Assembly (NCBI GenBank): GCA_017430675.1
Contig: JAFRMM010000221.1
Coordinates: 1 to 7,421 of the forward strand
Source: Prevotella sp.
Lineage (GTDB): Bacteria; Bacteroidota; Bacteroidia; Bacteroidales; Bacteroidaceae
DNA length: 7,421 nucleotides
Direction of reading: 5' to 3'
Position 1 is the stretch's first letter; each line of letters starts with the position of its first letter. The notes beneath the pieces are model-generated. The model saw nothing but the letters and a program-made list of their open reading frames with translations. It was not told where the DNA came from and made no database searches. The translations under genes and the position numbers were made by a program. This document shows, one piece after another, positions 1 to 7,315 of this stretch.

Positions 1-461
1 CCATCGGCATCGGCGCAGGGCAGCAGAGCCGTATCCACTGTACCCGTCTGGCTGGCAACAAGGCCGACATCTGGTGGCTGCGACAGCATCCGAAGGTGAT
101 GGACCTGCCCTTCGTGGATGGTATCCGCCGTGCTGACCGCGATAACACCATCGACGTGTATATCTCTGAGGACGAGCACGACGACGTGCTCCGCGACGGT
201 GCCTGGCAGCAGTTCTTCAAGACACAGCCCGAGGTGCTGACGATGGAGGAGAAGAAAGCGTGGATCGCCCAGAACACGAAGGTGGCACTTGGTTCTGATG
301 CCTTCTTCCCCTTCGGCGACAATATCGAGCGCGCCCACAAGAGCGGTGTGGAGTTCATCGCCCAGGCTGGTGGCTCCGTGCGCGATGATCATGTCATCAT
401 GACCTGTGACAAATACGGTATCGCCATGGCGTTCACTGGCGTCAGACTTTTCCACCATTAA
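1..461 (+). CDS. purH: AICAR transformylase (phosphoribosylaminoimidazolecarboxamide formyltransferase), C-terminal part
   Basis: Partial gene: the reading frame is open from base 3 and its start lies left of the window. It ends at TAA 459-461, leaving about 152 residues. The enzyme transfers a formyl group from 10-formyl-tetrahydrofolate to AICAR, giving FAICAR, the penultimate step of IMP synthesis in the cytoplasm. Visible family blocks are GAGQQSRIHCTRLAGNKAD near the left edge, SDAFFPFGDNIERA, GGSVRDDHVI and the terminal TGVRLFHH. The WWLRQHP stretch and the LFHH ending resemble the stand-alone transformylase of clostridia and Bacteroidales more than the classical bifunctional PurH. That assignment is from memory, and the missing N-terminus prevents checking for a fused IMP cyclohydrolase domain. 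The symbol purH is therefore used loosely. A decamer repeat array starts immediately after the stop codon. A small gene on the same strand follows 70 bp downstream and may be co-transcribed. Confidence 0.93.
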   Translation, partial: IGIGAGQQSRIHCTRLAGNKADIWWLRQHPKVMDLPFVDGIRRADRDNTIDVYISEDEHDDVLRDGAWQQFFKTQPEVLTMEEKKAWIAQNTKVALGSDAFFPFGDNIERAHKSGVEFIAQAGGSVRDDHVIMTCDKYGIAMAFTGVRLFHH

Positions 462-526
462 ACTAGGATTGCCTAGGATTTCCTAGGATTGCCTAGGACT
501 GCCTAGGATTTCCTAGATTATCTAAG
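462..526 (+). repeat. CCTAGG decamer tandem array 1
   Basis: About seven units of a 10-bp repeat, consensus CCTAGG-ATTK. Cores start at 462 (ACTAGG), 472, 482, 492 and 502 (all CCTAGG), then 512 (CCTAGA) and about 521 (TCTAAG). Spacing is exactly 10 bp up to 512 and then shifts by one. Edge units are degenerate and central ones perfect. The linkers are ATTG, ATTT, ATTG, ACTG and ATTT. The array begins directly after the TAA of the transformylase gene and ends 6 bp before the ATG of the 63-residue gene, so it fills almost the whole gap. The core is a perfect palindrome. The strand given is the orientation in which the consensus is written. Related arrays lie at 4627, 5950 and 7270. Confidence 0.9.
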
Positions 527-531
527 TAACT

Positions 532-723
532 ATGGACGATTTTCAGCATATCCTCGAAAACGGCATCAACTTCGGACGTGGAGGTGACAAGCCGAAAGAC
601 GATGGCAAGGTAAAGACCAAGGCCAAGAAGAAGCAGTATATCACTGGCGCTCACGGTAGCGGCTCTGCACGGCAGAAGGCCAAATACCGTGAACAGCGGG
701 CTAATCGCCACAAGAAAGGGTGA
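532..723 (+). CDS. Small lysine-rich basic protein, 63 aa, function unknown
   Basis: I do not recognise a family. The N-terminal 20 or so residues (MDDFQHILENGINFGRGGDK) are mixed and slightly acidic. Residues 20-35 are rich in Lys with the run KTKAKKK. The C-terminus is basic too, with ARQKAKYREQRANRHKKG. There is no signal peptide, membrane segment or cysteine, so it is presumably cytoplasmic. The charge pattern would suit binding to RNA, the ribosome or DNA, but that is inference. The start at 532 is the only sensible ATG and lies 6 bp after the decamer array, with no Shine-Dalgarno and no A-rich leader. The codons look ordinary for the region (many GGC, AAG, CGT). A 72-residue frame on the opposite strand covers the same DNA, but it runs through the repeat array and is judged a shadow. 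The gene may depend on the purine gene upstream for transcription. Confidence 0.65.
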   Translation: MDDFQHILENGINFGRGGDKPKDDGKVKTKAKKKQYITGAHGSGSARQKAKYREQRANRHKKG

Positions 724-777
724 TCAGGCGACGACAGATGGAATCTGCAAACAATTCTCAAATTTTTTCCTGATTTC

Positions 778-808
778 TTGGAAAGACGGATAAAAACGAC
801 TATCTTTG
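778..808 (+). promoter_or_regulatory. Bacteroidota-type promoter for the GH53 galactanase gene
   Basis: TATCTTTG at 801-808 matches the TAnnTTTG -7 element of the Bacteroidota housekeeping sigma factor. A TTG at 778-780 lies 20 bp upstream, in the range expected for the -33 element (TTTG-like). Transcription would start near 813-816, leaving a leader of about 25 nt that is A-rich and lacks a Shine-Dalgarno, ahead of the ATG at 840. No operator or repeat is visible around it. The elements are seen directly; the start site is inferred. Confidence 0.75.
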
Positions 809-839
809 CAGACAGAAATAAACTAACACTAATGATAAT

Positions 840-2108
840 ATGAAACGATTCAGACTACTTTTAGCCTCAGCCCTGCTCTTTGGCCTGACATCAACTGATG
901 CCCAGAAATACGTGGGCGGCGATATCTCGCTGTTACCCACCTATGAGGAACATGGCGCCAACTACATGGACCAGGACGGCCAGCCCATCAGCGACATGCT
1001 TACTTTTCTGAAAGAACAAGGTTGGAATACGATGCGTGTACGACTGTTCGTGGATCCCAGTCTGGCCTCTGACGAAGCAAAGGGCCAAGGCGTTCGCCAG
1101 GATCTGGAATATGTGAAGGCCTTCGGCAAGCGTATCAAGGAGGCAGGTCTGAAGTTCATGCTCGATTTCCATTACAGCGACACGTGGGCAGACCCCGGCC
1201 AACAGGGTACACCTACCTCTTGGACTCCTGCTCCCAATGAGAATACGCTCCCCATCGAAGAGATTGTCTATCAATATACCAAGGAATGCCTGGAAGCCCT
1301 TGTGGCAGCCGGAGCCACTCCCGACTTTATCCAAACGGGCAATGAGATCTCTTTCGGTATGTTGTGGGACAGCGGCTGCAAGGTGGATGCCAACAGCGAC
1401 TGGAATGACTATAAGGATGACAACTGGGATCGTTTCTCAACTGTACTGAAGAATGCCAGCAAGGCCTGTCGTGAGGTGTGTCCAGAGGCCAAGATCATCA
1501 TCCATACGGAGCAGTGCGCCAACAACCCCACGCTCGATGTGGCCTTCTTCAAGCATATCGAGAAGTATGAGATCGACTATGATATCATCGGCACGTCGTA
1601 CTATCCTTATTATAAAGGTCCCATCTCAAACCTCGACAAAGGCTTGAAAGAGTTGGAGACCAACTTCCCTGACAAACAGATCATGGTGGTGGAGACGGGA
1701 TGCGCCTACCACTGGGCCGTGGGCGACCAAGACCAAGGCTACCCCACCACCTACGAAGGTCAGCGCCAATTTACAGAAGACCTCATCACCATGCTGAACA
1801 AGCATGCCAACGTAAACGGTCTCTTCTGGTGGTTCCCTGAGGCCAACGAATACGGGCTTGACTGGGACACCCAGCGCGTGACTGACGGCTGGTATAACGC
1901 AGGGCTCTTCGACAACGAGACAGGCCGCGCCCTCCCTGCCCTCTATGAGTTGAAGAATTTCAACGATGGCGGCACAGACATTGGAGCCATCAGACAGGAA
2001 AGAAAAAAAGATGATGCCTGGTTTAACCTCAAAGGCAACATGCTTAACGGTAAACCAGGCACCAGCGGATTATATATCAATCATGGTCAGAAACTCATCG
2101 TCAGATAG
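840..2108 (+). CDS. Secreted arabinogalactan endo-beta-1,4-galactanase, glycoside hydrolase family 53
   Basis: A 422-residue protein that should cleave beta-1,4-galactan side chains of pectin (type I arabinogalactan). Residues 1-21 form a signal peptide with a likely cut after TDA21. No lipobox cysteine is present. The TIM-barrel domain spans about residues 24-375. Family marks are GGDIS at 26-30, MRVRLF at 65-70 and DFHYSDTWADPGQQ at 109-122. TGNEIS holds the likely acid/base Glu169, VVETG the likely nucleophile Glu285, and FWW lies at 329-331. The last 32 residues lie beyond the barrel and carry FNLKGN and GLYINHGQKLIVR, a short tail seen on many Prevotella secreted proteins. The gene has its own promoter. 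No SusC/SusD pair or other carbohydrate gene is in the window, so a polysaccharide utilisation locus is not evident here. The stop lies 10 bp from that of the convergent tolC-like gene. The family call is firm; the exact substrate preference is inferred. Confidence 0.95.
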   Translation: MKRFRLLLASALLFGLTSTDAQKYVGGDISLLPTYEEHGANYMDQDGQPISDMLTFLKEQGWNTMRVRLFVDPSLASDEAKGQGVRQDLEYVKAFGKRIKEAGLKFMLDFHYSDTWADPGQQGTPTSWTPAPNENTLPIEEIVYQYTKECLEALVAAGATPDFIQTGNEISFGMLWDSGCKVDANSDWNDYKDDNWDRFSTVLKNASKACREVCPEAKIIIHTEQCANNPTLDVAFFKHIEKYEIDYDIIGTSYYPYYKGPISNLDKGLKELETNFPDKQIMVVETGCAYHWAVGDQDQGYPTTYEGQRQFTEDLITMLNKHANVNGLFWWFPEANEYGLDWDTQRVTDGWYNAGLFDNETGRALPALYELKNFNDGGTDIGAIRQERKKDDAWFNLKGNMLNGKPGTSGLYINHGQKLIVR

Positions 2109-2118
2109 ATCTTAGAGT

Positions 2119-3483
2119 TTAGAAATTCATGTCCCTACCTCGATAGAACTCTATGAGCGCATGCTGGTAGAGGTTCTCGTAACGGGCCTGAACGAGGTCT
2201 GACTCCGACTTCAGGTAGTTGTTCTTCGACTCGTTGAACTCCGTGATGGTAGCCTTGCCGTTCTCATACTTCGCCTGCATCAGTTGGAAGGCATCCTTCG
2301 AACTCTGCAGGGCCTCCTCAGAAGAACGTTCCTTCGACAGCGCATTCTGGGCATTGTAATACACCTGCTGAATCTCCTTATAGAGCGTCTTCTTCGTATT
2401 GTCGAGTTGCAACTGCTGGTTCTCCAGATCAATCCGTGCACTGCGGATGTTGTTGCGTGTCTGGAAGCGGTTGAAGATGGGGATGCTCAGGTTCAGGCCG
2501 ATATACTGGCTGAAATTATTCTTCAACTGCTTGCCAAAGCCATCCGAGGGGAAGCCCGAGGTGGTGTAATAGTTCGTACTCAAACCACCACTCAACGAGA
2601 GGGACGGATAGTTGGCTGCCTGTGCAATCTTGATGCTGTGCTCAGAACCCCTCAGTCTCAGTTGCTGGGAGACAATCTCCGGCTTCACGCCCAGTGCCTC
2701 GGCATAGATCTGGTCTGGGGTGATCAGTCTGTCTAGTCCCACTAGCCCCGTTAGTTCGTCCAGACTAGGTTTGACGATACTGAATCCCTCTGGCGTGGGG
2801 AGTTCGAGCAACTGTGTGAGGTTCAGGACAGCCAGACGGGTGTTGTTCTCGGCCTGTGTGGCAGTGAGTTTGCTATTTGCCAGAGTAGCCTTTTGCTGGG
2901 AGAGTTCCGCCTCCGCTGCCTTGCCATTATTGACAAAGGCCTGCAGACGGGTGACCTGAGCAGAGTCGATCTCTATCTGGCGACGCGCCACATCAGCGAT
3001 CTCCATGTCATAGAGAATCTGTACGTAAGCCTCTGCCACCTGCATACGGATATCATTCTTCGCCTTCTCGAGATCGGCTGTGGCAACCTCCAGGTTCAAC
3101 TTGTCCAGTTTGATCTGATTAGGAATCTGGAAACCCGTGAAGAGCGGCACGCTGGTGCCAAGCGAGAGCGATGTACTACTCGTATTCGTGTTGGTATAGG
3201 TGTTATCTGCCGTCAAACCACGTCCAAAGGAGAAATTCTGTCCCATGGAGGCACTGAGGTCTGGCAGACGGGAGTTCTTCGACGTCGAGAGTTGGAGTTC
3301 CCTCTGGCGGCACTGGTTCTCCTGCTGCTTGATGCTGATGTTATGCTCTACGGCATAGTCACAGCACTCACGCAGACTCCACTGATGGGGCTGAGCCCCT
3401 AAAGGTAAAAGGGTAAGAAGGTAAAAAGGTAAAACCTTTACCCTCCCTTGAACCTTCATTGAATATATTGACTTCATCATCAT
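2119..3483 (-). CDS. TolC-family outer-membrane efflux channel
   Basis: A 454-residue outer-membrane factor, the exit duct of the tripartite exporter encoded upstream. The fold is the usual internal duplication of two OEP repeats. The first begins near WSLRECCDYAVEHN (residues 35-48) and the second near the YAEALGVKPEIVSQQLRLRGSE region. Each has long Gln/Ala-rich helices and a beta-strand segment, with PLFTG and IPIFNR as typical strand turns. Residues about 10-30 form a signal peptide cut after LGA30, and its hydrophobic core is encoded by an 8-bp tandem repeat (3401-3432). Three ATG codons in a row (residues 1-3) and another at residue 9 make the exact start uncertain. The first, 5 bp after the adaptor's stop and behind a purine-rich AAAAAG, is chosen. 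It is the last gene of the operon and the only junction without a CCTAGG array. There is no N-terminal lipid-attachment cysteine. Confidence 0.93.
   Translation of the reverse strand: MMMKSIYSMKVQGRVKVLPFYLLTLLPLGAQPHQWSLRECCDYAVEHNISIKQQENQCRQRELQLSTSKNSRLPDLSASMGQNFSFGRGLTADNTYTNTNTSSTSLSLGTSVPLFTGFQIPNQIKLDKLNLEVATADLEKAKNDIRMQVAEAYVQILYDMEIADVARRQIEIDSAQVTRLQAFVNNGKAAEAELSQQKATLANSKLTATQAENNTRLAVLNLTQLLELPTPEGFSIVKPSLDELTGLVGLDRLITPDQIYAEALGVKPEIVSQQLRLRGSEHSIKIAQAANYPSLSLSGGLSTNYYTTSGFPSDGFGKQLKNNFSQYIGLNLSIPIFNRFQTRNNIRSARIDLENQQLQLDNTKKTLYKEIQQVYYNAQNALSKERSSEEALQSSKDAFQLMQAKYENGKATITEFNESKNNYLKSESDLVQARYENLYQHALIEFYRGRDMNF
3401..3432 (-). repeat. 8-bp tandem repeat (TTACCTTT) inside the tolC-like signal peptide
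   Basis: Four contiguous octamers on the + strand: AAAGGTAA, AAGGGTAA, GAAGGTAA and AAAGGTAA (consensus RARGGTAA). On the coding strand they read as TTACCTTY-like units. They encode residues 18-28 of the TolC-like protein (LPFYLLTLLPL), the hydrophobic core of the signal peptide. A perfect 6-bp inverted repeat, GGTAAA-acc-TTTACC, lies at the right end (about 3428-3442). On the coding strand the unit has no stop codon in any frame, while the opposite strand carries TAA in every unit. Confidence 0.8.
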
Positions 3484-3488
3484 TCTTT

Positions 3489-4601
3489 TTACTTTTCGTC
3501 ATCGTCTGTGATAATCTCAGGACCACGTACCTTGTCCTTGGCAGTGATACCCTTCTTGATCTCGATGTTCACACCGTCAGAGAGGCCAGTGGTGACCTGG
3601 GTACGCTCGTAGGTCTTATTCTTACCCTCACCCTTGATAATATAGACGAAGGTGGAGTCGCCGCTGAACTCGATGGCACTCTCCGGGATGCTGAGGGCTT
3701 TTGTGACAGAGGCCAGCACAATCTCCGCATTGGCACTGTAGCCAGAGCGGATCTTACCGCCCTCCGCGAGTTTGACGGCGGCCTTGATCTCAAACTGGTT
3801 GGCACCGTTTGATTCCACAGCCTTCGGAGAGATATACTCCAAAGAGGCGTCGAACTTCAGGTCCTGCAGGGCGCCGATGGTGATCTTCATATTCATGCCA
3901 TTCACCAACTGTCCCACCTCCGTCTCGTCGATATTCCCACGGAAGATCAGGTCGTTCATGTTTGCCACGGAGGCGATTGTCGTACCGTCATTGAAGGTAT
4001 TCGAGAGGATCACCGAGTTACCTACCTTCACGGGGATGTCGAGGATCACGCCAGAGATCGTGGAGCGGATGAGCGTCGAGGATGCCTTGGCATTCGACTG
4101 TGACACACCATCGCGCACCACCTGCAGGGCATCGATGGCGGCAGCCTTCTCCTCCTTTGCCTGACGCAAGGCCTGACGGCTCTTGTCGAACTCATCGTCA
4201 GAGACCAGTTTCTGGTTGTGGAGGTTCTCTTCACGGTTGTAATCCACCTGAGCCTGTTGCAGGTTGATCTCTGCCAGTCGCACGCGGCTCTCTGCTGACG
4301 ACAGCGACCCCATGTCAGGAATCACCTTCACCTTGGCAATCACGTCACCAGCATTCACATAGTCACCTGGTTCCTTGTAGAGGTCGGTGATGATACCAGA
4401 GATCTGGGGCTTCACGTTCACCTCGTTACGAGGTTCGATCTTTCCTGTGATGATCGTTGTCTTCTGGATGTCCTCCGTCTTAGGGGTAAACTCGTTATAG
4501 ACAACTTCCTTGGGCTGGCTCTTCTGCCAGAGGAACACGAATGTTCCGATGAAAATCAGCGCAATAATCGCTGCGATGATCAGTTTTGAATACTTCTTCA
4601 T
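3489..4601 (-). CDS. Periplasmic adaptor (membrane fusion protein, HlyD/MacA type)
   Basis: A 370-residue adaptor that should link the inner-membrane ABC permeases to the TolC-like channel. Residues 7-24 are one N-terminal membrane anchor after MKKYSK, with no lipobox cysteine. The first lipoyl half spans about residues 53-91 (GKIEPRNEV to DVIAKV). An alpha-helical hairpin follows at about 100-166, rich in Ala, Gln, Glu and Arg, and the second lipoyl half is near 175-198 (STISGVILDIPVKVGNSVI). Beta-barrel and membrane-proximal domains follow. The hairpin tip carries R123, L127 and S134, spaced exactly as the R-x3-L-x6-S motif known in AcrA-type adaptors to contact TolC. The C-terminus ends in the acidic DDDEK. 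The start at 4601 follows an A-rich leader (about 4602-4626) without a Shine-Dalgarno. It is separated from the upstream permease by decamer array 2 and from the downstream tolC-like gene by only 5 bp. Confidence 0.94.
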   Translation of the reverse strand: MKKYSKLIIAAIIALIFIGTFVFLWQKSQPKEVVYNEFTPKTEDIQKTTIITGKIEPRNEVNVKPQISGIITDLYKEPGDYVNAGDVIAKVKVIPDMGSLSSAESRVRLAEINLQQAQVDYNREENLHNQKLVSDDEFDKSRQALRQAKEEKAAAIDALQVVRDGVSQSNAKASSTLIRSTISGVILDIPVKVGNSVILSNTFNDGTTIASVANMNDLIFRGNIDETEVGQLVNGMNMKITIGALQDLKFDASLEYISPKAVESNGANQFEIKAAVKLAEGGKIRSGYSANAEIVLASVTKALSIPESAIEFSGDSTFVYIIKGEGKNKTYERTQVTTGLSDGVNIEIKKGITAKDKVRGPEIITDDDEK

Positions 4602-4626
4602 AATTATATTGTTTTTTTATTTGTTT

Positions 4627-4674
4627 CTAGATATTCTAGGTATTCCTAGGATGGCCTAGGATAGCCTAGGATTA
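4627..4674 (+). repeat. CCTAGG decamer tandem array 2
   Basis: Five cores: TTCTAG ending at 4630, TCTAGG at 4635, and CCTAGG at 4645, 4655 and 4665. The last four are spaced exactly 10 bp; the outer one is degenerate and slightly out of phase. The linkers are TATT, ATGG, ATAG and ATTA. The final linker supplies the TAA stop (complement of 4672-4674) of the permease gene. In the direction of transcription (- strand) the order is stop codon, array, A-rich leader, adaptor ATG. Orientation matches arrays 1, 3 and 4. Confidence 0.88.
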
Positions 4675-5925
4675 CTCATCCCTCATCGCATCCACGGGCT
4701 TGATGCTCATGGCCCTGGCGGCTGGGGCCAAGCCAGCGAGCACGCCCATGGCCGACACCATGAGGGCTGCGAAGATGGCCGTCCAGAAGCCTACTTGGAA
4801 ATGGGTGGTGATGATGCCGTCCTCCATGCTGTTCATCTCCAGCATTTGGAGGATCATCACGCCGAAGAGGATGCCACTCATACCCGCGACCAGTGTCAGC
4901 ACAATACTTTCAGATATAATCTGCGAGAGGATCATCTTGGGCGTGGCACCTATGGCTCGGCGGATGCCTATCTCCGTGGTTCGCTCACGCACAGTGACCA
5001 TCATGATGTTCGACACACCGATAGCACCTGCCAGGAGGGTTCCAAGACCCACAAGCCAGATGAGGAAGTTGACACCCTTCATGAGATTGTCGAACATCTG
5101 GAATATCAGTTCTGTATTCATCACCATCGCACCCTGCTCATCGGCGGGGTCCACATAGTGGGCCCTGGCCACCGTCTCACGGATACGATCGGTAATCGTA
5201 CTCATCACGATATTACCACGACCTGTAGCGGCTATCATATCGACCTGGTTACCACGATTAAACATGGCCTGCATCAGTGTCAGTGGCAGGGTGATTTTCT
5301 CCTCAGCACGTCCGTTAATGTTGATACCACCAGTAGCATAATCCACGCCCACCACCTCGAAATAGGTAGAATCCACGCGGATCTTCTTGCCACAGGGGTC
5401 ACCTCCCCCCTTGAAGAGATCTTTATACACCTTCTTACCGATGACACACACCTTACGCTGCTCACGGATGTCCATCTCATTGAGGTAGCGGCCATAGTAC
5501 ATCTTTGGTTGGATGACGTTTGCCAGTTCGGGGATGGTGCCCTGGATGCGGGGCGTCGTCTTCTGGTCGCCATAGTAGGCAGTGTTTCCACTTCGCCAAC
5601 CAGAGAAGATGACAGGTACCACGTTCTCGAGTTCTGGCACGCGCTGCTTCAGTCGCTCGACATCCTTATAGTCCATCTCCCACCAGCGACCCTTACGGAA
5701 GCCCTTATAGGGTTTGGTGGTCTGCTGGGCCCATATCATGACGGTGTTCTGAGCGAAGCCCTCGAAGTTCTTGTCGAGCATCTCCTTCATAGCCATGCCA
5801 CCACCCATGAGACCTATGAGCATGAACACACCCCAGAACACTCCGAATCCCGTGAGGAACGAGCGCGCCTTATTGCGCGTCAGCGTGTCGAGGATCTCTC
5901 TGTAAGTATCGATATCTAGTCTCAT
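4672..5925 (-). CDS. MacB/FtsX-family ABC transporter permease, second of two
   Basis: A 417-residue inner-membrane permease of the mechanotransmission type. It has four predicted membrane helices, at about 23-46, 286-311, 333-359 and 380-402. A large MacB-like periplasmic domain of roughly 240 residues lies between the first two. After helix 2 comes the conserved cytoplasmic ERTTEIGIRRAIGATP (314-329), the FtsX-family coupling segment. The C-terminus is IKPVDAMRDE. There is no ATPase domain, unlike E. coli MacB, where ATPase and permease are fused, so it must use the separate ATPase encoded upstream. It is clearly related to but different from the other permease, with the same topology and different periplasmic sequence, which suggests a heterodimer (inference). 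The ATG at 5925 follows the A-rich leader AAAAAATAAGAAAAAGATTAAG. The gene sits between decamer arrays 3 and 2, and its stop codon comes from the end of array 2. The exported substrate is unknown. Confidence 0.93.
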   Translation of the reverse strand: MRLDIDTYREILDTLTRNKARSFLTGFGVFWGVFMLIGLMGGGMAMKEMLDKNFEGFAQNTVMIWAQQTTKPYKGFRKGRWWEMDYKDVERLKQRVPELENVVPVIFSGWRSGNTAYYGDQKTTPRIQGTIPELANVIQPKMYYGRYLNEMDIREQRKVCVIGKKVYKDLFKGGGDPCGKKIRVDSTYFEVVGVDYATGGININGRAEEKITLPLTLMQAMFNRGNQVDMIAATGRGNIVMSTITDRIRETVARAHYVDPADEQGAMVMNTELIFQMFDNLMKGVNFLIWLVGLGTLLAGAIGVSNIMMVTVRERTTEIGIRRAIGATPKMILSQIISESIVLTLVAGMSGILFGVMILQMLEMNSMEDGIITTHFQVGFWTAIFAALMVSAMGVLAGLAPAARAMSIKPVDAMRDE

Positions 5926-5949
5926 AATCTTAATCTTTTTCTTATTTTT

Positions 5950-6003
5950 TAGGTCTTCCTAGGATTGCCTAGGATTTCCTAGGGTTTCCTAGGATTGTCT
6001 AAT
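5950..6003 (+). repeat. CCTAGG decamer tandem array 3
   Basis: Four perfect CCTAGG cores start at 5958, 5968, 5978 and 5988, exactly 10 bp apart, with linkers ATTG, ATTT and GTTT between them and ATTG after the last. Decayed units flank them: TTAGG at about 5949-5953 and TCTAAT at 5998-6003. The right-hand decayed unit is in phase, and its CTA (5999-6001) is the complement of the TAG stop codon of the upstream permease gene, so repeat and gene overlap. An A-rich leader (about 5926-5950 on the - strand) separates the array from the next ATG. Confidence 0.9.
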
Positions 6004-7255
6004 CCGCCCTCAGCGCTTCTATCGGCCTGATGCGCGAGGCTTTGAAGGCTGGGATCAGTCCTGCGATGGTGCCAGCGACAACCATCACCATCGTGGCCTC
6101 GAAACACACATCCAGTCCGACGGTGGGATTAATGAAGAAGGTGATCTTCTCCACGCCCAGGTCTGTGACCTGATGTCCCAGCGTGGCATCCATATACTCA
6201 TTGGCTGCAATACCAAACAACATACCCAGATAGCCGAAGAACGTCGTGATGATCACACTCTCGATGATAATCAGTTTCAGGATGCTCCAGGGCTTGGCGC
6301 CAATGGCCTTACGGATGCCAAACTCATGGGTGCGCTCCTTTACGGTGATAAGCATGATATTCGACACACCCACAATACCTGACAGGAGTGTAAACAGTCC
6401 TACGACCCAGAGGAAGGTACGGATAATAGACATGGCCGACTCCATCGTCATACTCTCTGTGTAATTATTCCAGATCCATATACTGCGCTCGTCTTCCGGA
6501 TGGGCCTGATGGTTGGCATTCAACTTACGACGATAAGTCTTCTCGAAGGCCTCGTTGGCTTTCTCCGTGGGAAGTCCGTGGAACGTGAACTCGATATTTC
6601 CAATGTAGGGTGTGTTGGCTGCAAAGATACTCTTGATGGTGGAATAGGACGAGAAGGCATTACCCCCACCGTCGTCACGACCCTTATAGATACCTACCAC
6701 CTTAAAGGCGATGTTGGACACCTTGACATACTTGCCCACGAGTCTTTTGTAATCCTTGGGCTCGAGTTCCTTGGCCTGCTTGTGAGTGAGCACGAGCACC
6801 TTGCGCTTCTCCTTGATGTCGATATCGTTGATGAATCGGCCTTCGATCATGGTTTGCTTCACGATCTGCGTGTGAACGGGATAGACTCCTGCTATCTGCA
6901 TGCTCATATACTCCTCGCCATTGGTGACGGTAGCACTGGTATAGTAGCAGGCACCCACCTCGTCGATATGTTCCGTAAACCCAGTCTCTGTGTCAGAGAG
7001 GTCACGCTTGTTCAGACTGATATCGCGGCCTTCGTTCAGACCGTTATAGGCCTTCGACGTCTGACCTCCATACACCTCAATGGAGTTGGTGAGGAAGTCG
7101 CCCATCATCTTCATGTTGGCATTGATGAGACCATTGCCTGCTCCCAGCAGCACGATGAGCATGAAGATGCCCCACGCCACGGCGAAACCCGTAAGCGTCG
7201 TGCGGAGTTTATTCCTCCGCGCCGTACTCCATATTTCTGTGATTATATCTCGCAT
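5999..7255 (-). CDS. MacB/FtsX-family ABC transporter permease, first of two
   Basis: A 418-residue permease with the four-helix MacB layout. The N-terminus is a cytoplasmic basic segment (TARRNKLRTT), followed by helix 1 at about 20-43, a periplasmic domain of roughly 235 residues, helix 2 at about 280-304, helix 3 at about 325-350 and helix 4 at about 383-404. ERTHEFGIRKAIGAKP at 307-322 is the conserved segment after helix 2, and the tail is IRPIEALRAD. There is no nucleotide-binding domain. It follows the ATPase gene after a 55-bp gap holding array 4, and its own stop codon lies in array 3. The start at 7255 is preceded on the - strand by AAAAAACCAGATAAT, an A-rich leader without a Shine-Dalgarno. 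The known role of the family is to convert ATP hydrolysis in the cytoplasm into movement of the periplasmic domains that pushes substrate towards adaptor and TolC. Pairing with the second permease is inferred from adjacency. Confidence 0.93.
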   Translation of the reverse strand: MRDIITEIWSTARRNKLRTTLTGFAVAWGIFMLIVLLGAGNGLINANMKMMGDFLTNSIEVYGGQTSKAYNGLNEGRDISLNKRDLSDTETGFTEHIDEVGACYYTSATVTNGEEYMSMQIAGVYPVHTQIVKQTMIEGRFINDIDIKEKRKVLVLTHKQAKELEPKDYKRLVGKYVKVSNIAFKVVGIYKGRDDGGGNAFSSYSTIKSIFAANTPYIGNIEFTFHGLPTEKANEAFEKTYRRKLNANHQAHPEDERSIWIWNNYTESMTMESAMSIIRTFLWVVGLFTLLSGIVGVSNIMLITVKERTHEFGIRKAIGAKPWSILKLIIIESVIITTFFGYLGMLFGIAANEYMDATLGHQVTDLGVEKITFFINPTVGLDVCFEATMVMVVAGTIAGLIPAFKASRIRPIEALRAD

Positions 7256-7269
7256 ATTATCTGGTTTTT

Positions 7270-7315
7270 TCTAGGATTTCCTAGGACTGCCTAGGATTGC
7301 CTAGGTATTCCTATT
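7270..7315 (+). repeat. CCTAGG decamer tandem array 4
   Basis: Cores at 7270 (TCTAGG), 7280, 7290 and 7300 (all CCTAGG), then a decayed CCTATT at 7310, all exactly 10 bp apart. The linkers are ATTT, ACTG, ATTG and TATT. The CTA inside the last unit (7311-7313) is the complement of the TAG stop of the ATPase gene. The array therefore overlaps the end of that gene, and the rest of the gap is the A-rich leader of the first permease. Confidence 0.9.

Follow-up and report, generated by a model that had tools for sequence, protein, structure and literature searches.

The sequence considered here (hereafter the window) is a stretch of 7,421 nucleotides from a Prevotella sp. contig (JAFRMM010000221.1, assembly GCA_017430675.1), in which four intergenic gaps hold tandem arrays of a 10-bp unit made of a CCTAGG core and a four-base spacer. 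These arrays probably belong to a system of repeat and protein, in which they are the dispersed cognate repeats and the protein is an S23-type four-helix bundle (4HB) whose own gene is bounded by such arrays. On the best reading, S23-type elements colonise gene 3' ends, and the arrays are their cognate sites or their solo arms; the safest inference is that an S23-type protein and its array constitute one functional unit. The four arrays are as follows:

462..526, plus strand: array 1, with the cores ACTAGG, four times CCTAGG and CCTAGA, then a degenerate unit; directly 3' of the TAA of the plus-strand open reading frame (ORF) ending at 461, the next ORF starting at 532.
4627..4674, minus strand: array 2, in an efflux operon, between the genes for a MacB-type permease (stop at 4672-4674) and an HlyD-type adaptor (start at 4601).
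5950..6003, minus strand: array 3, in the gap that separates the two MacB-type permease genes; its first core is degenerate and supplies the TAG with which the upstream gene terminates.
7270..7315, minus strand: array 4, upstream of the first MacB-type permease gene, starting at the TAG of the preceding ORF.

A search of the window for CCTAGG-N4-CCTAGG, i.e. CCTAGGNNNNCCTAGG, with up to two mismatches recovered 16 matches, all inside the four gaps, as against a mean of 0.23 (maximum 2) in 200 dinucleotide shuffles; likewise, 19 of the 23 CTAG tetranucleotides of the window fall inside the four intervals. Thus, the arrays and the concentration of CTAG in them, which the original prediction had noted from the sequence alone, are real, with coordinates correct to within a few bases. 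It had not recorded that all four gaps lie between co-directional genes (one behind a plus-strand ORF and three inside the minus-strand efflux operon), that the arrays start near stop codons, or that the units at their edges frequently consist of half-cores (nnTAGG or CCTAnn). Scanning of the window with Rfam gave no match at the gathering score. The repeats of CRISPR arrays measure ~23-50 bp and alternate with unique spacers of about the same length; with a 6-bp core and a 4-bp spacer, the window arrays thus do not have the form of a CRISPR array.

The family extends well beyond the window. A contig scan for three CCTAGG cores with N4 spacing yielded at least 120 stretches; among the matches listed, 112 were titled Bacteroidota and 8 were not, the latter being unrelated records that were excluded from the counts, and the array set used below comprises the 112 listed Bacteroidota loci and the window (132 arrays). 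Many of the Bacteroidota titles name ruminant guts, the complete genome of Prevotella communis E15-14 is included, and 18 viral contigs have a match to the three-core pattern; a nearly identical three-core stretch is common to three of these (L122, L126 and L134). An even sample of 301 Bacteroidaceae genomes contained CCTAGG triples in 28, with 1 to 115 matches each (array counts from draft genomes being lower bounds), and a backward-pattern control gave 0 among the matches listed. The repeat is therefore dispersed, patchy among relatives, and scarce in coding DNA, only one of the 132 arrays lying within a called ORF. As had been supposed, it appears to be an unnamed family, literature searches having surfaced no published name.

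An all-against-all comparison of the loci revealed one gene of ~220 codons beside an array in 10 of the 112 listed loci, and in a further locus (L140) that was fetched via its array. All four copies scanned scored over the cut-offs of TIGR04258 ("four helix bundle suffix") and TIGR02436, and two of the four also over that of PF05635 (23S-rRNA-IVP, S23; 36 and 34.2 bits), the other two falling just under it. By these profiles the partner belongs to the S23 / 23S-rRNA-IVP family of four-helix bundles and is extended by a TIGR04258 suffix; it also has a predicted coiled coil. A structure model of the protein (pLDDT 89.8) found as its nearest folds Xcc0516 (2gsc), the best match with probability 1.00, TM 0.87 by target and E 0.13, and BT_0352 (2rld), both at E-values above 0.1, and a profile match to 2gsc was obtained at 7.3e-5. 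In the portion of PMC4990558 consulted, Xcc0516 is reported as a pentamer and the S23 proteins are described as lacking a known function. The protein has at least 7,999 relatives, and no enzyme family was matched in the profile scans made.

Altogether 80 copies of the 4HB gene were collected (leaving out a partial TIGR04258 match on contig C67 of G009), most of them with periodic flanks, although some (e.g. L145, L169 and L208) are without a periodic array. Distant 4HB proteins are flanked by other cores, namely TCTAGA-N3, ACTAGT-N3, CTATAG-N3, TCCGGA-N3, GTCGGAC and TTAATGGGG types (period 9), and by CG-centred units of period 8; in one divergent clade, period-8 arrays around a CG step occur in 10 of the 10 copies seen (L203, L205, L206, L207, L315, L316, L317, L321, L322 and L326). 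Flank periodicity was at least 0.75 for 45 of 72 distinct 4HB genes (10 of the 72 having been found through arrays) and for 10 of 20 genes fetched later (with a slightly differently cut upstream window), compared with 8.2% among 304 ORFs distant from arrays; these 304 superseded a contaminated control of 789 ORFs from the array loci (22.6% at or above 0.75). The later-fetched genes show, in part, the cores typical of their clades. In a maximum-likelihood tree of the 72 proteins the 25 CCTAGG-flanked ones form a single clade (100/100), and the 11 flank classes, assigned by eye, require 15 changes on the tree versus 44 in shuffles, none of 200 shuffles being as low. Among individual copies, that of L206 ends in a CxxC zinc-ribbon-like tail, and in L147, L148, L149, L150 and L152 the 4HB gene and its arrays adjoin ORFs that, judged by eye, resemble the type I restriction subunits HsdS and HsdR. 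In P. communis E15-14 a 4HB gene of the CCTAGG clade adjoins the array located at 3.1995 Mb.

Co-occurrence across genomes points the same way. TIGR04258 is found in 105 of the 301 Bacteroidaceae genomes, comprising 25 of the 28 with CCTAGG triples versus 80 of the 273 without (p=5.6e-10). In a set of 72 genomes, consisting of 36 array-positive (12 of them picked from the contig scan) and 36 array-negative ones (the first in the list), TIGR04258 is present in 31 and 6, respectively. A gene of the CCTAGG clade itself occurs in 17 of the 36 array-positive genomes (one copy broken, and leaving out an ambiguous fragment in L212) versus 1 of the 36 array-negative ones (p=1.5e-5), and in 9 of the 11 family-sample genomes with at least five triples. 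For the sister cores, TCTAGA-N3 triples were found in 15 of the 72 genomes (up to 179), i.e. in 4 of the 6 with a TCTAGA-flanked gene and 11 of the 66 others, and CTATAG-N3 triples in 14 (up to 79), i.e. in 5 of the 6 with a CTATAG-flanked gene and 9 of the 66 others, some of these triples adjoining the 4HB gene itself; the backward control of these searches gave 0, save for one genome with 2. Wherever the ORF calls are clear, the dispersed TCTAGA and CTATAG arrays have the identical stop-array-ATG layout, gap cases scored as "inside" or "div" being left unassigned. The match between dispersed core and resident gene thus looks better than chance, yet loose.

The internal structure of the arrays provides clues regarding how they change. 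The 394 spacers between perfect cores are of 98 kinds, and spacers are nearly free while cores persist. Neighbouring spacers within an array resemble each other (2.23 of 4 positions, as compared with 1.38 of 4 for spacers of different arrays), and the number of units in one array is not the same in two genomes whose surrounding sequence is 96.6% identical; arrays thus appear to gain and lose units through tandem duplication. The slippage invoked in the original prediction thus seems to account for local changes in unit number, but alone it fails to explain why the core follows the protein clade. In the same two genomes further short tandem arrays of other, ~11-bp units follow the CCTAGG array (L139:2400-2900 and L140:4033-4560), and the length of this stretch also differs between them. 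The most frequent array size is 5 units (38 of 132 arrays). Since the outer halves of the edge units decay, the element itself is suggested to be the dyad TAGG-N4-CCTA; edge-to-edge pairing of whole arrays gave 14 and 19 complementary of 36, without excess over permutation. A palindrome scan of 12 stretches found a multi-unit array in 12 of 84 gaps of at least 30 bp.

The arrays are positioned with respect to gene ends. By gap, 90 of the 132 are co-directional, 28 convergent and 2 divergent (L005 and L011), while 11 adjoin the end of a locus and 1 falls within an ORF, the ORFs having been called by a simple longest-ORF script that may misplace starts near arrays. When all gaps of 40 bp or more in the 112 loci are compared, those with an array number 84 co-directional, 21 convergent and 2 divergent, and those without one 167, 38 and 54, indicating avoidance of divergent gaps (p=3.2e-7) and no difference between convergent and co-directional ones (p=0.76). 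In the 90 co-directional arrays the first perfect core follows the stop codon at a median distance of 15 bp. Of 131 stops located no more than 120 bp from an array, 73 are TAG, versus 107 of 540 in the background, and 46 of these 73 are in phase with the core, such that the gene ends on a core's TAG (the unit rule, requiring at least 4 of 6 core bases, biases core identity upward here and in the orthologous-gap and inverted-flank analyses). In the 70 gaps inspected the usual layout in mRNA sense is stop(TAGG)-N4-(CCTAGG-N4)n-CCTA-A-rich-ATG.

This layout invites the idea of a three-frame stop insulator, in which the period of 10 would place a TAG in every frame of both strands behind genes. 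The excess of TAG stops and their core phase are what it would predict; yet sister arrays have a period of 9, which serves one frame only, or stop-less cores such as TCCGGA, the CC/GG positions and the partner gene are left unexplained, and a gene running into an array must stop anyway. The period-9 and TCCGGA arrays refute three-frame stopping as a general function and make it a by-product at most; as an account of the family it is hardly credible. The original prediction had named, among possible roles, a binding array for a nucleoid or segregation protein, the 10-bp period keeping all cores on one face of the helix. A palindromic core at about one-turn spacing is consistent with this, but the arrays track gene 3' ends and shun divergent gaps, most of the sampled relatives are without them (triples in only 28 of 301 genomes, and 7 CCTAGG dimers in P. 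communis versus 162 in another genome), and arrays of sister genes have periods of 8, 9, 10 and once 11, at odds with helical phasing as the cause of 10 bp. We consider a nucleoid or segregation role very unlikely. The more general part of that prediction, an array bound by a protein, is retained as the best-supported reading, since a specific protein family accompanies the arrays.

The positional preference is also reminiscent of the repetitive extragenic palindromes (REPs) and bacterial interspersed mosaic elements (BIMEs) with their REP-associated tyrosine (Y1) transposases (RAYTs), the REPtrons, which, in the portion of PMC3733652 consulted, likewise consist of dispersed extragenic palindromes situated in convergent and co-directional gaps, and of a gene that is framed by the repeat. 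On that analogy the arrays could be REP-like palindromes moved by a Y1 transposase, the 4HB gene being incidental. Unlike REPs, the CCTAGG arrays are short-period tandem repeats, and their partner is without an enzyme match in the scans. The association with the Y1 transposase family PF01797 is not significant (19 of 36 array-positive versus 12 of 36 array-negative genomes, p=0.15), and none was shown in the array-rich genomes G012, G099, G115, G126 and G271. We therefore give this possibility slightly less credence still than the nucleoid one.

The genes around the window arrays are:

3..461, plus strand: ORF ahead of array 1, with no Pfam match at 1e-5; it resembles a PurH C-terminus.
532..723, plus strand: basic ORF of 63 amino acids behind array 1, with no Pfam match at 1e-5.
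2119..3483, minus strand: outer membrane efflux protein (OEP), the last gene of the operon, with a 5-bp gap ahead of it that is without an array.
3489..4601, minus strand: HlyD-type periplasmic adaptor.
4672..5925, minus strand: MacB_PCD/FtsX permease.
5999..7255, minus strand: MacB_PCD/FtsX permease.

The efflux operon was found in 232 of 299 genomes of the genus Prevotella, and its gaps were read in 30 loci. At the orthologous gaps there are arrays with different cores, sequence of another kind, or nothing at all, and none of the three gaps keeps an array in all 30 loci. In L097 the gap orthologous to that of array 1 contains a CCTAGG array with different spacers between flanks that are 84% identical, and the array 2 gap also has CCTAGG; in the remaining operon loci read the latter gap has other sequence. 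At the site of array 3, L280, L281, L298 and L303 have a four-base gap without an array, and the window sequence reads like such a gap opened within GATTA, which would fit insertion with a short duplication, although this is too little to prove it. TIGR04258 is matched in 13 of the 30 operon genomes. In one of them (G520) the operon contains two arrays, one of period 8 (CATCGAAA) and one of period 9 (CCTAGT), that correspond to the flanking sequences of the two 4HB genes of this genome; agreement between operon array and 4HB flank extends to G484 and, loosely, to G586.

Several orthologous gaps keep arrays with intact cores and changed spacers, and because such good-core arrays persist a regulatory role is possible. 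Taken further, the 4HB protein might be a post-transcriptional regulator of a host regulon, with the arrays as mRNA sites between operon genes that set mRNA stability or translation, a proposal that coincides with the repeat-plus-protein reading up to the point of binding. The arrays do lie in transcribed gaps and avoid divergent ones (p=3.2e-7), intact cores are kept at several orthologous gaps, and a comparable idea has been proposed for TAACTGA repeats in the portion of PMC4679880 consulted. Against this, the same operon gaps hold other cores or none in the 30 relatives read, and the G-U wobble tests are inconsistent. A host regulon is thus a tentative second choice, with the balance against it.

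Several observations weigh against the preferred reading of the arrays as cognate repeats of an S23-type protein. Neither G002, the genome richest in CCTAGG (115 triples), nor G099 (18) has a clear CCTAGG-clade gene in its draft; G078 has arrays of three cores with TIGR04258 absent from the draft; the sole TIGR04258 gene found in the draft of G031, with its 126 TCTAGA and 79 CTATAG triples, is CCTAGG-flanked; and G020 and G099 have a TCTAGA-flanked gene without any TCTAGA triple. Among the operon genomes, arrays disagree with the 4HB flanks in G508, G412, G312 and G345, agree partially in G510, and are not clear in the other five. Two relatives, 84-86% identical in aligned DNA, are without an array at a window array gap, from which it follows that no single array can be essential. 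Moreover, 8 of the 20 later-fetched 4HB genes score below 0.70 in periodicity, and the wobble tests disagree (6 v 5; 19 v 38 and 116 v 78). Recognition of the array by the 4HB protein is itself a prediction, physical binding being what we infer from the pairing of gene and repeat.

Finally, the congruence of core and clade could stem partly from simple linkage of flank and gene, though only in part, because spacers differ while cores stay. In its pure form, linkage would make the 4HB gene a passenger in a slippage-prone repeat, with the core following the tree through joint inheritance. Flank and gene are indeed neighbours by construction, and the locally varying unit number together with the likeness of neighbouring spacers would suit such a repeat. 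The persistence of the core speaks against it, as do the array-rich genomes, in most of which a gene of the matching clade is present (9 of 11, versus 1 of 36), the partly clade-typical cores of the later-fetched genes, and the recurrence of inverted or periodic flanks around S23 genes of two other phyla (see below). We regard linkage alone as improbable.

Returning to the cognate-repeat reading, the probable mechanism is one in which the 4HB protein, whose nearest solved relative is reported as a pentamer, would recognise the repeated core at regular spacing, CCTAGG in this clade, in RNA or DNA form. A ring protein that contacts the core several times over would be well matched to tandem units whose spacers are free to vary. 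In the TRAP-RNA system a ring protein meets evenly spaced short motifs with free spacers; fold, spacing and motif are all different from those of the 4HB arrays, and the comparison could serve as an analogy only. The arrays, presumably copied from place to place, would spread to and stay at sites just behind stop codons, where they would do least harm and be transcribed with the gene. As their origin we favour a selfish element like the intervening sequences (IVSs) of 23S rRNA, whose arms became short-period arrays and whose solo arrays settled behind stops; secondarily, the arrays may tune the mRNA of neighbouring genes.

The IVS of Coxiella has heptamer repeats before its S23 ORF and a 28-bp terminal stem around it, and is called selfish in the portion of PMC4990558 consulted. 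An S23-family ORF between complementary arms is in part seen here too (9 of 19 and 5 of 11 genes in the two phyla considered next), which is trivial where palindromic arrays flank both sides. Unlike the IVSs, the S23 genes of the arrays lie outside rRNA as far as seen, have short-period arrays on one or both sides, are accompanied by many solo arrays, and encode the extra TIGR04258 suffix and coiled coil. All 12 annotated S23 copies read have protein-gene neighbours, rather than being inserted in 23S rRNA genes; no rRNA search was made on the other copies.

Comparable arrangements are observed around many bare S23 genes beyond Bacteroidota. TIGR02436 is matched in 19 of 120 genomes of the Nitrosomonas phylum (Pseudomonadota), where the family motif is present in 21 of 30 loci and flank periodicity reaches 0.70 in 8 of the 21, nearly always at 7 or 8 bp. 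On cyanobacterial plasmids the same level is reached, with a shorter window, by 9 of 11 S23 genes, which were chosen from 34 matched records. Upstream and downstream flanks match in inverted orientation over at least 12 nt for 9 of the 19 S23 genes from Pseudomonadota and 5 of the 11 from cyanobacteria, compared with 22 of 342 and 2 of 110 mismatched pairs, and the heptamer GTAGGCA occurs three times in tandem in 4 of 60 genomes, all four with S23 genes. On an Anabaena plasmid (L379) the S23 gene lies between annotated cas6 and cas4 genes.

Cyanobacterial short tandemly repeated repetitive (STRR) sequences are intergenic short tandem heptamer repeats to which no function has been assigned. These and the TAACTGA repeats of Beggiatoaceae (PMC4679880, as far as consulted) resemble the present family in being intergenic short tandem arrays, some overlapping stops, and differ in having a 7-bp unit in place of the period of 10 seen in the window; heptamers do flank S23 genes in the other phyla. 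The part of PMC4679880 searched proposes other TAACTGA-binding proteins and has no matches to four helix, S23 or 23S rRNA. PF05635 also resembles Avd of diversity-generating retroelements (PMC10053308, as far as consulted). A broader proposal would be that S23/IVP proteins are the missing partners of short-period intergenic repeats across bacteria, forming one ancient class of repeat-bounded elements (CCTAGG arrays, STRR-like heptamers and perhaps TAACTGA) in which the clade dictates core and period and solo arrays spread to stops genome-wide, with the 23S rRNA IVSs and the Avd of diversity-generating retroelements as offshoots. The case for this generalisation seems to us evenly balanced.

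To our knowledge, bacterial intergenic short tandem repeats have been on record for a long time with no partner known for them, and the arrays by themselves would be one more short-period repeat. What appears to be new is that they are paired with a protein family that has a name but no assigned function, core and period being specific to the clade; literature searches, covering open-licence papers without preprints and hence no proof of absence, found no paper that links S23 or TIGR04258 proteins with dispersed arrays. The pairing joins two puzzles into one testable question, namely whether each S23-type protein binds its own array. If so, it would define a new class of repeat-spreading genetic element and offer ready protein-array pairs of differing specificity, as well as a possible new control layer at gene 3' ends in major gut bacteria.

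Some minor observations may be added. In Prevotella nigrescens (NZ_CP082843.1; L357:5959-6648) an annotated four helix bundle suffix protein, WP_004367454.1, has a CCTAGG/ACTAGG-like array behind its gene. A tRNA scan of 60 of the 112 listed Bacteroidota loci found three tRNAs. Two mycobacterial records with homologous surroundings hold CCTAGGCAGN-like arrays (L055:7864-7889 and L060:1540-1575). In the window, positions 3401-3436 contain A/G-rich GGTAAAA-like repeats (plus-strand letters) within the first part of the OEP ORF; in L280, L298, L301 and L303 the macB-macA gap is occupied by similar stretches, which may represent another class of gap array.

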